Below are positions 49,903-59,463 of a stretch of DNA of 64,000 nt, piece after piece. Where the stretch lies: assembly GCF_009901585.1 (NCBI RefSeq), contig NZ_WXYO01000001.1:248001-312000 (forward strand). Direction: 5' to 3'. This stretch comes from Poritiphilus flavus (GTDB lineage Bacteria > Bacteroidota > Bacteroidia > Flavobacteriales > Flavobacteriaceae). The notes under the pieces are model-generated. The model made no database searches and was not told the origin of the DNA. It saw nothing but the letters and a program-made list of their open reading frames with translations. A program made the position numbers and the translations under genes. How positions within the stretch are numbered: position 1 is the stretch's first letter; each line of letters begins with the position of its first letter.

Positions 49903-50150
49903 TAAGTTTAAGTCTAAGTTTAAGATCAAGTTTAAGGTTTTAAGTGTTAGGTGTTAAGTGTTAAAACAAGCACTGTTCACTGATTACTGTTTACTGTTTA
50001 CTGTTCACTGATTACTGTTTACTGCCAACCGCCCACTGCCTACTGCCCACTGAATTCATCCTCCGTAGCTTTAGCGAAGGAGGACTGTTCACTGTTTACT
50101 GTTTACTGTTTACTGCCAACTGCCAACTGCAAACCGCCCACTGATCACTG
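49903..50150. repeat. Degenerate hexamer/heptamer repeat tract between dinB and dnaE2
   Basis: About 49903-49970 is made of AAGTTT-like hexamers. From 49971 to 50150 the sequence is a run of heptamers of the form ACTGTTT, ACTGTTC, ACTGATT, ACTGCCA, ACTGCCC, reaching into the last two codons of dinB. The tract is interrupted by one hairpin, TCCTCCGTAGC-TTTA-GCGAAGGAGGA (50059-50084), with two mismatches. It occupies almost the whole spacer between the two polymerase genes. Confidence 0.85.
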
Positions 50151-51359
50151 CTTCCTGTGCGCCAACACAATAGGCGGTTGCCCGTTAAAGGGGTTGTGCA
50201 TCCTGCCGATGGTTTTTGCGCCCATACTGGAAGCCCGTATCACACTTTTGTCTCCAAAGCGTTCCCGTATACGATCCATGGCCATATAAAGGTTCAGGGC
50301 TTCTTCTGTATCCTCAAAGAGGTTGATCTGGTAATTTCCGGACACCAGATGACTAAATCGCACCCCTATCAGCCGCACCAATAACCTCTTATTGTAAAGA
50401 AGCCGGAAAAGATCCAGGACCTTGGGAATAAGAATATGGTCTGCGCTGGTGTAGGGAATCCGCATTTGCTTGGAATAGGTATTGAAATCCGAATATCGGA
50501 TCTTCACTGTAACACAAGCAGTCAGCTTTTGCCCCCTGCGCAACTGAAAGGCCAGATTCTCGGTCATTGCAATGAGTATGCCTTTGAGTTTTACCACATC
50601 TATGGTATCCCGTTCAAAAGTGCGTTCGTTGGAAATAGACTTCCGGTCGCAGAATGGGATTACAGGGGTGTTATCCACCCCATTGGAGCGTTTCCAGATC
50701 ACAATACCGTTCTTTCCCAAAACCCTCTGCATAAGGTCTATCGGCATTTCCTGTATGGTCTTTATCTTTCGGAGTCCAAGGTTTCGAAGCGTTTGGTAGG
50801 TTTTATCGCCTACCATAGGGATCTTTTTAATGGATAAGGGGGCAAGAAAGGCTTTTTCGTACCCAAAATCCACTTTTAACTGGTTGTTGGGTTTGGCTTC
50901 ATTCGTGGCTACTTTAGAGACCACTTTGTTTACAGACATCCCAAAAGAAATAGGCAATCCCGTTTCTCTGATAATCCTCTGGCGGAGTTCCATGGCATAC
51001 TTATAACAACCAAAAAAACGATCCATCCCGGAGAGGTCCGCATAGAATTCGTCAATGCTCGACTTTTCAAATAGCGGCACCTGTTCTTTGATGATTTCCG
51101 TTACCTCATCCGAATGTTTGCTGTAGGTTCCCGCATTACCTTTGATAACAACAGCCTCGGGGCAGAGCTCCCGTGCCATTTTCATGGGCATGCCGGAATG
51201 GATACCATATCCCCGGGTTTCATAGCTACAGGCTGCGACTACACCCCTGTCTGTCAAACCTCCCACAAGGATGGGTTTGTGGTTCAAACGGCTGTCCAGC
51301 CGGCGTTCTACGGACACAAAAAATGTATCCAGGTCCATATGGAGAATAGTTTTTTGCAT
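50145..51359 (-). CDS. dinB: DNA polymerase IV (Y-family)
   Basis: 404 residues with all Y-family motifs: HMDLDTFFVSVERR (metal-binding D8/D10-type), VAACSYETRGYGIHSGMPM, SSIDEFYADLSGM (catalytic D-E pair), FGMSVNKVVSKVATNEAKPNNQL and the helix-hairpin-helix region KIPMVGDKTYQTLRNLG. The C-terminal little-finger domain is complete, but I do not see a convincing beta-clamp peptide at the end (it finishes ...PPIVLAHRKQ). It is upstream of the DnaE2-like gene on the same strand. A perfect palindrome 42-62 bp before its start codon may be a damage-response operator. Confidence 0.93.
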   Translation of the reverse strand: MQKTILHMDLDTFFVSVERRLDSRLNHKPILVGGLTDRGVVAACSYETRGYGIHSGMPMKMARELCPEAVVIKGNAGTYSKHSDEVTEIIKEQVPLFEKSSIDEFYADLSGMDRFFGCYKYAMELRQRIIRETGLPISFGMSVNKVVSKVATNEAKPNNQLKVDFGYEKAFLAPLSIKKIPMVGDKTYQTLRNLGLRKIKTIQEMPIDLMQRVLGKNGIVIWKRSNGVDNTPVIPFCDRKSISNERTFERDTIDVVKLKGILIAMTENLAFQLRRGQKLTACVTVKIRYSDFNTYSKQMRIPYTSADHILIPKVLDLFRLLYNKRLLVRLIGVRFSHLVSGNYQINLFEDTEEALNLYMAMDRIRERFGDKSVIRASSMGAKTIGRMHNPFNGQPPIVLAHRKQ

Positions 51360-51387
51360 GGCATTCTAATAGGAAGGACAATATATG

Positions 51388-51421
51388 GAATATTTCCTAA
51401 AATATGGAAATTTTCCATATT
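51388..51421 (-). promoter_or_regulatory. Palindromic operator candidate upstream of dinB
   Basis: AATATGGAAA-T-TTTCCATATT (51401-51421) is a perfect 10-bp dyad with a one-base centre. A shorter related dyad GGAA-TAT-TTCC lies at 51388-51398. Both sit 29-62 bp before the dinB start codon, where an SOS-type repressor would act. Confidence 0.6.
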
Positions 51422-51428
51422 TAATATC

Positions 51429-51457
51429 AAAAAAACACCCTGCATAAGCAAGGTGTT
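51429..51457 (-). terminator. Terminator of the 40-residue membrane-protein gene
   Basis: AACACC-C-TGC-ATAA-GCA-A-GGTGTT (51434-51457) forms a 9-bp stem with a single mismatch. On the minus strand it is followed by a run of Ts (complement of A29-A33). It lies 49 bp beyond the stop of the small gene at 51506 and just before the dinB operator. Confidence 0.75.
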
Positions 51458-51505
51458 GTATTCATTGTCATATTTTAACGCGGTGGTCGTAAAAGAGTGG
51501 TTTCT

Positions 51506-51628
51506 TTAGTTTAAATAGACGTAAAGGAATACTATAGACATAATCACATAACAAATCACGCCAATTCGCACATAATCAAACACCAGTCCTTCACTAAATC
51601 GTTTAAAATTTTCCAAGATTGAATTCAT
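51506..51628 (-). CDS. 40-residue single-span membrane protein
   Basis: A very short gene: ATG at 51628, TAA at 51506-51508. The product begins MNSILENFKRFSEGLVFDYV and has one hydrophobic helix (about residues 22-38, IGVICYVIMSIVFLYVY) with a basic N-terminal side. It follows the 56-residue gene by 83 bp and is followed by a clear terminator, which supports a real transcript. No family is recognised. A similar but not clearly homologous 33-residue protein occupies the same place after the second copy of the 56-residue gene. Confidence 0.55.
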   Translation of the reverse strand: MNSILENFKRFSEGLVFDYVRIGVICYVIMSIVFLYVYLN

Positions 51629-51711
51629 AACGTTTCGTTTTTATTCATTCGTTATAAAGCAGGTTCCGGGAAAAATCCGAGTTCAGCAGATAAGGGGAAG
51701 GATCCGCGGTT

Positions 51712-51882
51712 CTAATCGAAAGCAAAACCGGTATATACCCTGAAAATAAACGCGTAAAGCGCAATAAAGAACAAGGCAAAACTGAACCAGGCAAATACCT
51801 TCATATAGTTTTTAATAAGGTAGTGACCCAAGTTCCTGAATCCGTCCAAATAGATCTCTTTAAAAAGTAATAATGTATTCAT
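51712..51882 (-). CDS. 56-residue membrane protein, copy A of a duplicated gene
   Basis: ATG at 51880-51882, stop TAG at 51712-51714. A short amphipathic N-terminus (MNTLLLFKEIYLDGFRNLGH) precedes a basic hinge (YLIKNYMK) and one membrane helix rich in Phe and Ala (about 30-50), ending RVYTGFAFD. It shares 41 of 56 residues (73%) with copy B at 52277-52447, and most changes are conservative (I/V, L/V, R/K), a sign of selection on the protein. It resembles short flavobacterial DUF families that I cannot name with certainty. The 154-nt leader before it is also shared with copy B. Confidence 0.75.
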   Translation of the reverse strand: MNTLLLFKEIYLDGFRNLGHYLIKNYMKVFAWFSFALFFIALYAFIFRVYTGFAFD

Positions 51883-52036
51883 AATCCCAAATCTTTAAAT
51901 CCATAAGTTAGATTACAAAATTCGGGCTACGTTTAATTTTTTGCCCGGATTTTAGTCCAATGCAGGAAAAATTCTGGTGAACTGCACCCTTTGTATCACA
52001 GGCCCCAATAAATGGTATTTCGTAGAAATTATTTGA
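51883..52036 (-). promoter_or_regulatory. Conserved leader of copy A with stable hairpin
   Basis: Read on the minus strand, arms AAAATCCGGGC (complement of 51943-51953) and GCCCGAATTTT (complement of 51917-51927) pair at 10 of 11 positions around a 15-nt loop, followed by a short T-run. The hairpin ends 34 bp before the start codon. It is kept intact in copy B. It may be an attenuator, a regulatory RNA element or a protein operator. Confidence 0.6.
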
Positions 52037-52084
52037 TTTCTTAGTAAAAAAAGAAGGTCTAAATCCCTTCAAAAACCTATAAAC

Positions 52085-52115
52085 AAAAAGATCCGCCATA
52101 AGCCTATGACGGATC
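52085..52115 (-). terminator. Terminator of the 33-residue membrane-protein gene
   Basis: GATCCG-C-CATA-AGCC-TATG-A-CGGATC (52090-52115) is a 10-bp stem with one mismatch. The minus-strand transcript continues into five Us (complement of A85-A89). It lies 27 bp past the stop of the gene at 52142. Confidence 0.78.
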
Positions 52116-52141
52116 CCATATCCCTGCTCTGAGGGTATTTT

Positions 52142-52243
52142 CTAAGAAATCTCTACTGCAGTGACTATCAGGAATACGATAAATGATACAAACAGGCATC
52201 CCAATACCACAAAAACATCGATAAAATCAGGTTTTCTTTTCAT
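52142..52243 (-). CDS. 33-residue single-span membrane protein
   Basis: ATG at 52241-52243, TAG at 52142-52144. The product begins MKRKPDFIDVFVVLGCLF and is almost entirely one hydrophobic helix (about 10-30) with a strongly basic N-terminus, ending TAVEIS. It follows copy B of the 56-residue gene by 33 bp and is closed by its own terminator, so the pair forms a compact two-gene transcript. No family is recognised. Confidence 0.55.
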   Translation of the reverse strand: MKRKPDFIDVFVVLGCLFVSFIVFLIVTAVEIS

Positions 52244-52276
52244 CAGTCCAAATTTAGCTTCAGGGCATATCGCGGC

Positions 52277-52447
52277 CTAATCAAAGGCGAAACCGGTAAA
52301 AACCCTGAATACAAAAGCGTACAACACCACAAAAAACATCATAAAACTAAACCAGGCAAAAGCCTTGAAGTAGTTCTTTACCAGGTAACTCCCCAGGTTC
52401 TTAAATCCATCCAAATAAATCTCTTTTAAAAGTACTATTGTCTTCAT
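52277..52447 (-). CDS. 56-residue membrane protein, copy B of a duplicated gene
   Basis: ATG at 52445-52447, TAG at 52277-52279. Same layout as copy A: amphipathic start MKTIVLLKEIYLDGFKNLGS, hinge YLVKNYFK, one membrane helix, and the identical end TGFAFD. Shared invariant runs are KEIYLDGF, FAWFSF and TGFAFD. The full leader of copy A, including its hairpin (52482-52518), is present upstream. It is the first gene of its leftward pair, and its leader abuts the divergent EEP-nuclease gene at 52710. Confidence 0.75.
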   Translation of the reverse strand: MKTIVLLKEIYLDGFKNLGSYLVKNYFKAFAWFSFMMFFVVLYAFVFRVFTGFAFD

Positions 52448-52601
52448 AATCCCAAATCTTTGATTCCATAAGTTAGATTACAAAATTCGGGCTAGGTTTA
52501 CTTTTTTGCCCGGATTTTAGTCCAACGCAGGAAAAATCCTGATGAACTACAATAACCTTATCACAGGTCTTAATAATCGGTATTTCGTAGAGATTATTTG
52601 A
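52448..52601 (-). promoter_or_regulatory. Conserved leader of copy B with the same hairpin
   Basis: Same length as leader A and about 86% identical. The hairpin arms are 52508-52518 and 52482-52492 with a 15-nt loop; the stem is unchanged while the loop differs at two positions. That pattern suggests the stem matters more than the loop. Confidence 0.6.
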
Positions 52602-52709
52602 GGGACGCTACTCAAAATCAATTAATTCTTATCATTATGTTAAGTCGCTCATTTACTGAGATATAGTTATTATCTTGAAGTCAATTTCTCATCAAATGCC
52701 CTGATTTCA

Positions 52710-53684
52710 ATGATAAAACATCATATCTACTGGTGGAATCTCGAGAATCTTTTTGATATCGAGAACTCCCCCAGGCGTAGTGAATTCCTCAATAATACCC
52801 TAAAAGGAGAATTAGAAGGTTGGACCGTGGAAGTCCTCGACCAAAAAATTGCCAGGCTGCTTTCAATTATTACCCAATTCAATAAAGGAAAGGGGCCGGA
52901 TATATTTGGCGTCTGCGAGGTGGAAAACGCCTTTGTTGTAGAATTGCTGGTAGAACGAATGACGCAGGAGCTTTCAAGGGAATACGCTTTTGTGATCTCA
53001 GATAGCGCGGATAAACGCGGGATAGACAGCGCATTGATCTATGACCGCGCCATGTACGATCCGGATCCCGGAACCTTCAGCCTGAGGATCATCAAAAGAA
53101 ACCCTACCCGAGACCTTTTCCAGGCGCACCTCAATACTACTGCCGGGAAAAAACTGCTTCTCGTATTAAATCACTGGCCTTCCCGTTCCGGTGGGGTTTT
53201 ACGCACGGAACCTTATCGGATCATGGTAGCGGAAAACCTCGCTTACTGGATCGAACGCATGTATGAGGAGCAGGGAGAAGAAGCGTCTATTGTACTTATG
53301 GGCGACTTTAACGACAATCCCACAGACCGCTCCATTACGGATTACCTGCTCGCAAATAATAACCGGGCGCTTGTAAAGAGTGATCGAACCACCAAAAAAT
53401 ACATGTATAACCTTATGCACCGTTTCCAGGATGCTCAATTGGGTACTACCGTTTTCAGCTCGCAATACAATCTACTGGACCAATTTATCATCTCTAAGCA
53501 CATCCTTTCAGAAGTGGCCGGAATGGACTTCAACCTGAGTACGGTTAAAATTCTCAATTACCCGGAACTCACCAGCGGTTCCTATCAGAAACCCATTCGA
53601 TTTTCCAGGCCAAGCCGGGACGATTTCGATCCTGATGGTTATAGCGACCACCTGCCGATTGAATTGGTGTTAAACGAAAAGTAA
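52710..53684 (+). CDS. Endonuclease/exonuclease/phosphatase-family protein
   Basis: 324 residues, no signal peptide. EEP-fold motifs are in order: YWWNLENLFD (metal-binding Asn), DIFGVCEVEN (catalytic Glu), the RGIDSALIYD run, LNHWPSRSGG (His), VLMGDFNDNP (D-x-N) and the closing GYSDHLPIELVL (SDH). All catalytic residues are present. It may cleave DNA, RNA or phosphate esters; the substrate is not evident. It diverges from the small-membrane-protein cassette, with 108 bp between its start and the conserved leader. Confidence 0.88.
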   Translation: MIKHHIYWWNLENLFDIENSPRRSEFLNNTLKGELEGWTVEVLDQKIARLLSIITQFNKGKGPDIFGVCEVENAFVVELLVERMTQELSREYAFVISDSADKRGIDSALIYDRAMYDPDPGTFSLRIIKRNPTRDLFQAHLNTTAGKKLLLVLNHWPSRSGGVLRTEPYRIMVAENLAYWIERMYEEQGEEASIVLMGDFNDNPTDRSITDYLLANNNRALVKSDRTTKKYMYNLMHRFQDAQLGTTVFSSQYNLLDQFIISKHILSEVAGMDFNLSTVKILNYPELTSGSYQKPIRFSRPSRDDFDPDGYSDHLPIELVLNEK

Positions 53685-58762: not shown

Positions 58763-59463
58763 TACGCTGTGTTATCATAGAGGATCAACCCCCGGCCCAG
58801 CGAATACTGCAAAAGTATATCGCGGATATGGGGAACCTGGATCTACAGGGTGTCTTTTCCGATGGGATCCAGGCGATGGATTTCTTAGAATCCAATGCGA
58901 TAGATCTGATCTTCCTCGACATTCACCTGCCAAAACTATCGGGAATAGACTTTATGAAAGTCATGGAAAACCGCCCGGACATTATCCTGACCACGGCTTT
59001 CCCGGATTACGCCCTGGAGAGCTACGAATACCATGTGGTGGATTATTTGCTCAAACCCTTTTCTTTTGAACGCTTCGTAAAGGCCGTGTCCAAAGTAAGT
59101 TCTAAAAATAAGGAGGTACTCAATGCAGAATCCCCGGAGACCGAGGCCGGGAGAAAAGAGATCTTTATCAAATCTGGTTACGAGCATATCAAGATCCTGA
59201 TCGAAGATATACTGTATATCCGTTCCGATGCGGATTATACGGAGATTATCACTCCCCTGAAAAAGCATTTGTCTTCGGAGCCCTTGCGCTACTGGCTGGA
59301 AAACCTTCCGGGCAGACATTTTGTGAGATCCCACAAGTCTTTTATTGTGAATAGTTCCAAGATAGAAAAAGTAACGGGGAACCTGATTTTGCTACCAGGA
59401 GATATTAAAGTCCCAATTGGCAGGGCCTATAAGGAGGAATTTATGAAAAGAATATTGAACTAA
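58759..59463 (+). CDS. LytTR-family response regulator
   Basis: 234 residues. The receiver has E8/D9 and phospho-acceptor D54 in [13 protein letters not shown], the [10 protein letters not shown] run and K in [11 protein letters not shown] LytTR DNA-binding domain follows (about 130-232; [48 protein letters not shown]). It overlaps the kinase gene by 4 bp. LytTR proteins bind pairs of short direct or inverted repeats, so the ACGAC array upstream of the operon is a candidate target, as is the 21-bp repeat at 61117. Confidence 0.92.

Follow-up and report, generated by a model that had tools for sequence, protein, structure and literature searches.

Twin DUF6747 units of Poritiphilus flavus share an upstream region with tandem half-sites of a likely LytTR-controlled promoter class

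The window, a stretch of 64,000 nucleotides from Poritiphilus flavus, carries two neighbouring units on the minus strand, copy A (52036..51712) and copy B (52601..52277), which align without gaps over 325 nt. Each unit consists of a 154-nt upstream region (A, 51883..52036; B, 52448..52601), described in an earlier note on this DNA as an untranslated leader, and a gene for a protein of 56 residues (A, 51712..51882; B, 52277..52447). The two upstream regions are identical at 133 of 154 positions (86%), the genes at 130 of 171 (76%) and the proteins at 41 of 56 residues (73%), and all the corresponding figures of the earlier note were thereby reproduced. By codon position, 46, 51 and 33 of 57 first, second and third positions are identical. 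The similarity ends abruptly at either unit boundary, and when leader A was used as a genome-wide query, leader B (E 8e-48) was the sole match to rise above noise. The differences are unevenly spread along the upstream region (P 8e-6), with 1 of 23 positions differing in -154..-132, 14 of 37 in -131..-95 and 6 of 94 in -94..-1. Third codon positions differ at 24 of 56 sites against the 6 of 94 in the core upstream region (P = 2e-7).

Both proteins are full-length members of PF20532 (DUF6747), a Pfam family of 55-56-aa proteins (A, E 7.4e-26 over residues 1-55; B, E 1.1e-26), and their scores of 90.8 and 93.5 bits exceed the gathering score of 27 bits. The Pfam entry gives no function, a literature search found no paper naming DUF6747, and an NCBIfam search returned insignificant matches only. 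The AlphaFold model of the copy A protein is composed of a single helix spanning residues 3-51 (pLDDT 87). The P. flavus genome possesses five DUF6747 copies. Of 300 genomes sampled from the same family, 56 contain DUF6747 (49 of 237 genera), often in several copies, and the named relatives belong to Flavobacteriaceae such as Maribacter, Muriicola, Robiginitalea, Eudoraea and Flagellimonas. DUF6747 was absent from all 14 control genomes, and no relative was found in the viral contigs searched. The proposal that a small membrane protein is under selection here was borne out, the protein being under purifying selection and belonging to DUF6747, which occurs in those 49 of 237 genera.

Each DUF6747 copy of the window opens a separate two-gene operon, in which it is followed by a micro-protein gene and a strong terminator. 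In operon A the second gene (51506..51628, minus strand) encodes a 40-aa membrane protein beginning MNSILENFKRF, and its homologue in Muriicola (locus L030) likewise lies 3' of a DUF6747 copy. In operon B it encodes a 33-aa membrane protein beginning MKRKPDFIDVF (52142..52243, minus strand), and similar ORFs occur 3' of other copies. Both partners are one-helix membrane proteins. They were considered real genes because the A partner and its Muriicola homologue differ by a dN of 0.21 against a dS of 1.51, and a set of similar partner ORFs from Eudoraea shows a dN/dS of about 0.1. The minus-strand terminators are situated at 51434..51457 for operon A and at 52088..52117 for operon B, the latter with a 13-bp stem and a T run. 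As a partner gene and a terminator follow each copy, the repeated unit corresponds to the 5' two thirds of each operon. Across the family, a hydrophobic ORF lies within range 3' of 40 of 128 DUF6747 units, a few of these ORFs being the next DUF6747 copy.

Further downstream, synteny identified a dinB homologue (50145..51359, minus strand) as the conserved neighbour. In all 38 loci having dinB, the two genes share a strand and DUF6747 is the upstream one. The dinB gene has its own paired GGAAAT-type operator, which in the window (51384-51419) is composed of two GGAAATnnTCC-like palindromes about 21 bp apart and is kept in nearly all 38 loci. A 7-nt ACTGTTT-like repeat array was also observed between dinB and dnaE (49955-50157), overlapping the dinB end.

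To describe the conserved part of the upstream region, a motif was derived de novo from 81 non-redundant upstreams by a one-site-per-sequence EM, used in place of a first search with free copy number which was dominated by poly-T. The resulting motif, GCATTTCATC-N15-TTnRnC, places its two half-sites at a distance of 21 bp from each other, around position -105 relative to the ATG. Its log-likelihood was 473 compared with 124-151 in shuffled sets, and 69% of the sites fell in -115..-90 against 22% expected. Autocorrelation, an independent test, counted 21 exact 6-mers at lag 21 where 3.5 were expected (z 7.4). The second half-site was found at exactly +21 in 13 of 59 units and within +20 to +24 in 20 of 59, and inverted half-sites were enriched 39-40 nt upstream of half-site 1. 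A motif score of at least 15 was reached by 76 of 122 units against 11 matches in 1.79 Mb elsewhere, the scoring being in-sample. A stringent half-site pattern was no commoner than its control over the whole genome. An alignment of 18 leaders showed invariant columns chiefly at the half-sites, at a G preceding the box described below, at the TTTG of this box and at the ATG.

Both window copies carry all three half-sites. On the minus strand, half-site 1 is GCAGTTCACC at 51976..51985 in A and GTAGTTCATC at 52541..52550 in B, both located by the de novo motif, while half-site 2, located by the motif and the invariant columns, is TGCATTGGAC at 51955..51964 in A, 21 bp from half-site 1, and TGCGTTGGAC at 52520..52529 in B. 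The inverted third half-site lies on the plus strand at 52015..52024 in A (GTATTTCGTA) and at 52580..52589 in B. Two further motif matches in the window (33546 and 29827) have no gene start 100 nt downstream and appear to be fortuitous. Outside DUF6747, a 40-aa hydrophobic ORF at L103:5594-5818, which adjoins a DUF6747 gene as a separate ORF, has the same operator 102 nt before its start; this match suggests that partner-type genes may share the operator. The MKN/MKH-type subgroup of DUF6747 (L006, L007, L009, L003 and similar loci) shows a different 21-bp direct repeat, TTCACAACA occurring twice, together with a AGTTATATA box, which may represent a second, related operator type.

Closer to the genes, both copies contain a -7-like box, GAATTTTG, at 51916..51923 (A) and 52481..52488 (B) on the minus strand, and its TTTG is invariant in the 18 leaders. 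The flavobacterial promoter consensus is TAnnTTTG at -12 to -5, and the median 5'UTR is 24 nt (PMC9723704). From the box we infer 5'UTRs of 29 nt (A, 51883..51911; B, 52448..52476; minus strand), close to the published median; the predicted start site is uncertain since GAATTTTG lacks the T of TAnnTTTG. With a predicted start about 29 nt before the ATG, most of the 154 nt would lie outside the transcript, and 'untranslated leader' is probably the wrong term for that part.

The nature of the conserved sequence bears on the suggestion that the units resemble RNA-regulated small membrane proteins such as type I toxins, where translation of a toxic peptide would be governed by leader structure or by an antisense RNA. 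A small hydrophobic protein in several tandemly arranged copies does recall such systems, and the whole 148-nt leaders of A and B fold better than shuffles (z -2.5 and -2.4). The structures of A and B differ, however, and RNAalifold detected no conserved pairs in 18 leaders, while the predicted 5'UTR with the gene start folds no better than shuffles (z -0.15 for A and +0.55 for B). No antisense TAnnTTTG box, the promoter type searched, occurs on the plus strand across 51400-52720, and Rfam gave nothing above gathering scores on the window and four sister loci. Unlike type I toxin-antitoxin pairs, the units are bicistronic with a second small protein, and DUF6747 is a conserved multi-copy gene across many genera. 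As neither a conserved fold nor an antisense promoter was found, the toxin-like reading is unsupported and was regarded as very improbable. Selection on noncoding upstream sequence was itself supported, given the half-sites and the -7-like box conserved across genera. Judged from these columns, the conserved 'leader' is mainly promoter DNA with paired predicted regulator-binding sites, and not a regulatory RNA leader.

A tandem repeat of this kind is known from LytTR regulators. YpdB, a LytTR regulator of E. coli, binds a direct repeat of GGCATTTCAT with a 21-nt period, and LytTR sites in general are 9-11-nt repeats 11-13 nt apart (PMC4847170); the AlgR box is CCGTTCGTC (PMC4064291). The window repeat falls within these dimensions with its 10-nt half-sites, 21-bp period and 11-nt spacer, and by sequence it lies just upstream of the promoter, half-site 2 ending 31 nt before the -7-like box. 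Hence it resembles the YpdB/yhjX, AlgR and AgrA promoters in having a 9-10-nt direct repeat of 21-bp period upstream of the promoter, with a word near that of YpdB. It differs from them in that the target is an operon of tiny membrane proteins in Flavobacteriaceae, and in that DUF6747 units sometimes have the third, inverted half-site. The P. flavus genome contains 39 LytTR genes. No LytTR gene was found consistently near the DUF6747 loci and most of the other loci have none nearby, just three proteins in the neighbourhoods of some 80 loci resembling LytTR regulators. One LytTR-domain gene lies in the window (about 59188-59451, plus strand), at a distance of 7 kb from the units, but a genome containing 39 such genes may place one there by chance. 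On balance, these observations make it likely, though unproven, that the DUF6747 promoter belongs to a LytTR-controlled class.

The excess of leader over gene conservation was then compared with relatives. In 1,755 unit pairs with gene identity of 0.70-0.75 and 537 pairs with 0.75-0.80, upstream identity was about 0.5-0.6 per 20-nt bin, near the level of shuffled sequences, and in 35 other within-locus pairs it was at most 0.65. Among 581 pairs with third-position identity of 0.55-0.60, identity over the last 94 nt had a mean of 0.56 and a 99th percentile of 0.78; the window pair, at 0.94, was the maximum. In the sampled genomes the pattern is therefore peculiar to the window pair, for which the claim of the earlier note holds while failing as a family rule. 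Free divergence of the leader in orthologous units, named there as contrary evidence, was found in part, as the upstream sequence outside the half-sites and the box is near the shuffled level. At the synonymous divergence of this pair, constraint alone predicts an identity of only about 0.56-0.63, which makes recent exchange of upstream sequence likely; the uneven differences, with a diverged spacer at -131..-95 between kept flanking blocks, argue that constraint acts too. The extra identity is thus probably the product of both, with local sequence exchange adding to the constraint on the promoter, although a constraint specific to this lineage could give the same picture. In the protein tree A and B are placed in different clades. 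As an AU test did not reject A and B as sisters (p 0.415), an old paralogy is not claimed from the tree, which also permits a recent duplication after which the genes diverged fast. The leader scores did not distinguish A-clade from B-clade donors.

Two other explanations were weighed against this background. By the first, the upstream identity is merely young and arose by recent gene conversion of a region without a special role; in its favour, the pair is an outlier for its divergence class and other tandem pairs are near the shuffled level. Such conversion would not account for the uneven distribution of the differences, nor for half-sites and a box which are also fixed across genera, and as the whole explanation it appears unlikely. 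The invariable position of DUF6747 upstream of dinB might instead hint that the units belong to the SOS system and share a damage-response promoter. Yet the paired GGAAAT-type operator of dinB is missing from the DUF6747 upstreams, terminators stand between the DUF6747 operons and dinB, and other DUF6747 copies are located elsewhere, so that this assignment deserves scarcely any credence.

The joint reading that we hold with reasonable confidence is that of two adjacent bicistronic operons, each encoding two tiny one-helix membrane proteins, DUF6747 and a partner of 33 or 40 aa. Each operon would be driven by a promoter with a tandem operator of two half-sites 21 bp apart, to which a LytTR-family regulator most likely binds, and the bound regulator would activate a weak, activator-dependent sigma-A promoter. 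The 'leader' would be mainly promoter DNA, with transcription covering only its last 29 nt or so. The leaders would exceed the genes in likeness since the promoter blocks are constrained, and since the upstream regions, and not the genes, probably swapped sequence recently in this lineage.

A conserved leader of another kind was found outside the window, in a single-copy DUF6747 paralogue of MGTL type, which P. flavus carries elsewhere in its genome (L005, G000:C17:404251-404415) and which is present in 46 of 300 genomes. MGTL-bearing bacteria do without Shine-Dalgarno sites. In 29 MGTL leaders chosen regardless of it, a 20-nt element, GATTTAACCCTTATAGCTTT, was matched at 16 or more of 20 positions in 24. 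In 27 of the 29 leaders a TAnnTTT[GA] box is present, and the element follows it at a distance of about 36 nt, which probably places the element inside the 5'UTR. Pairwise identity is 0.80 for the element against 0.76, 0.88 and 0.46 for the three codon positions. The element is complementary to the start-codon region (AAACUAUAUGGG), with a mean duplex energy of -10.2 kcal/mol compared with -5.7 for shuffled elements. In a covariation check the start-codon stem varied hardly at all among leaders, and several long leaders from some genera have differing hairpins inserted between element and AUG. The MGTL leader is thus a deeply conserved candidate RNA leader which could pair with the start codon, and the title of the earlier note, a leader better conserved than its gene, suits this paralogue better than the window pair. 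It is conceivable, though doubtful, that DUF6747 and its partners constitute a lineage-specific, hitherto undescribed class of two-protein membrane operons under LytTR control, from which MGTL switched to RNA control with the element hiding the start codon.

These observations carry a caution, as high leader identity between two paralogues of the same genome need not imply a functional RNA leader. Comparison across genomes decides leader function, and the same comparison exposed the MGTL sister gene with its genuinely conserved leader. As for the role of DUF6747 and its partner, our guess is that they may be small inner-membrane accessory or modulator subunits made on a two-component signal. 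With the present results the anonymous DUF6747 family becomes a testable regulatory unit, for which an operator and a class of regulator are predicted, a partner gene is known and dinB is a constant neighbour.
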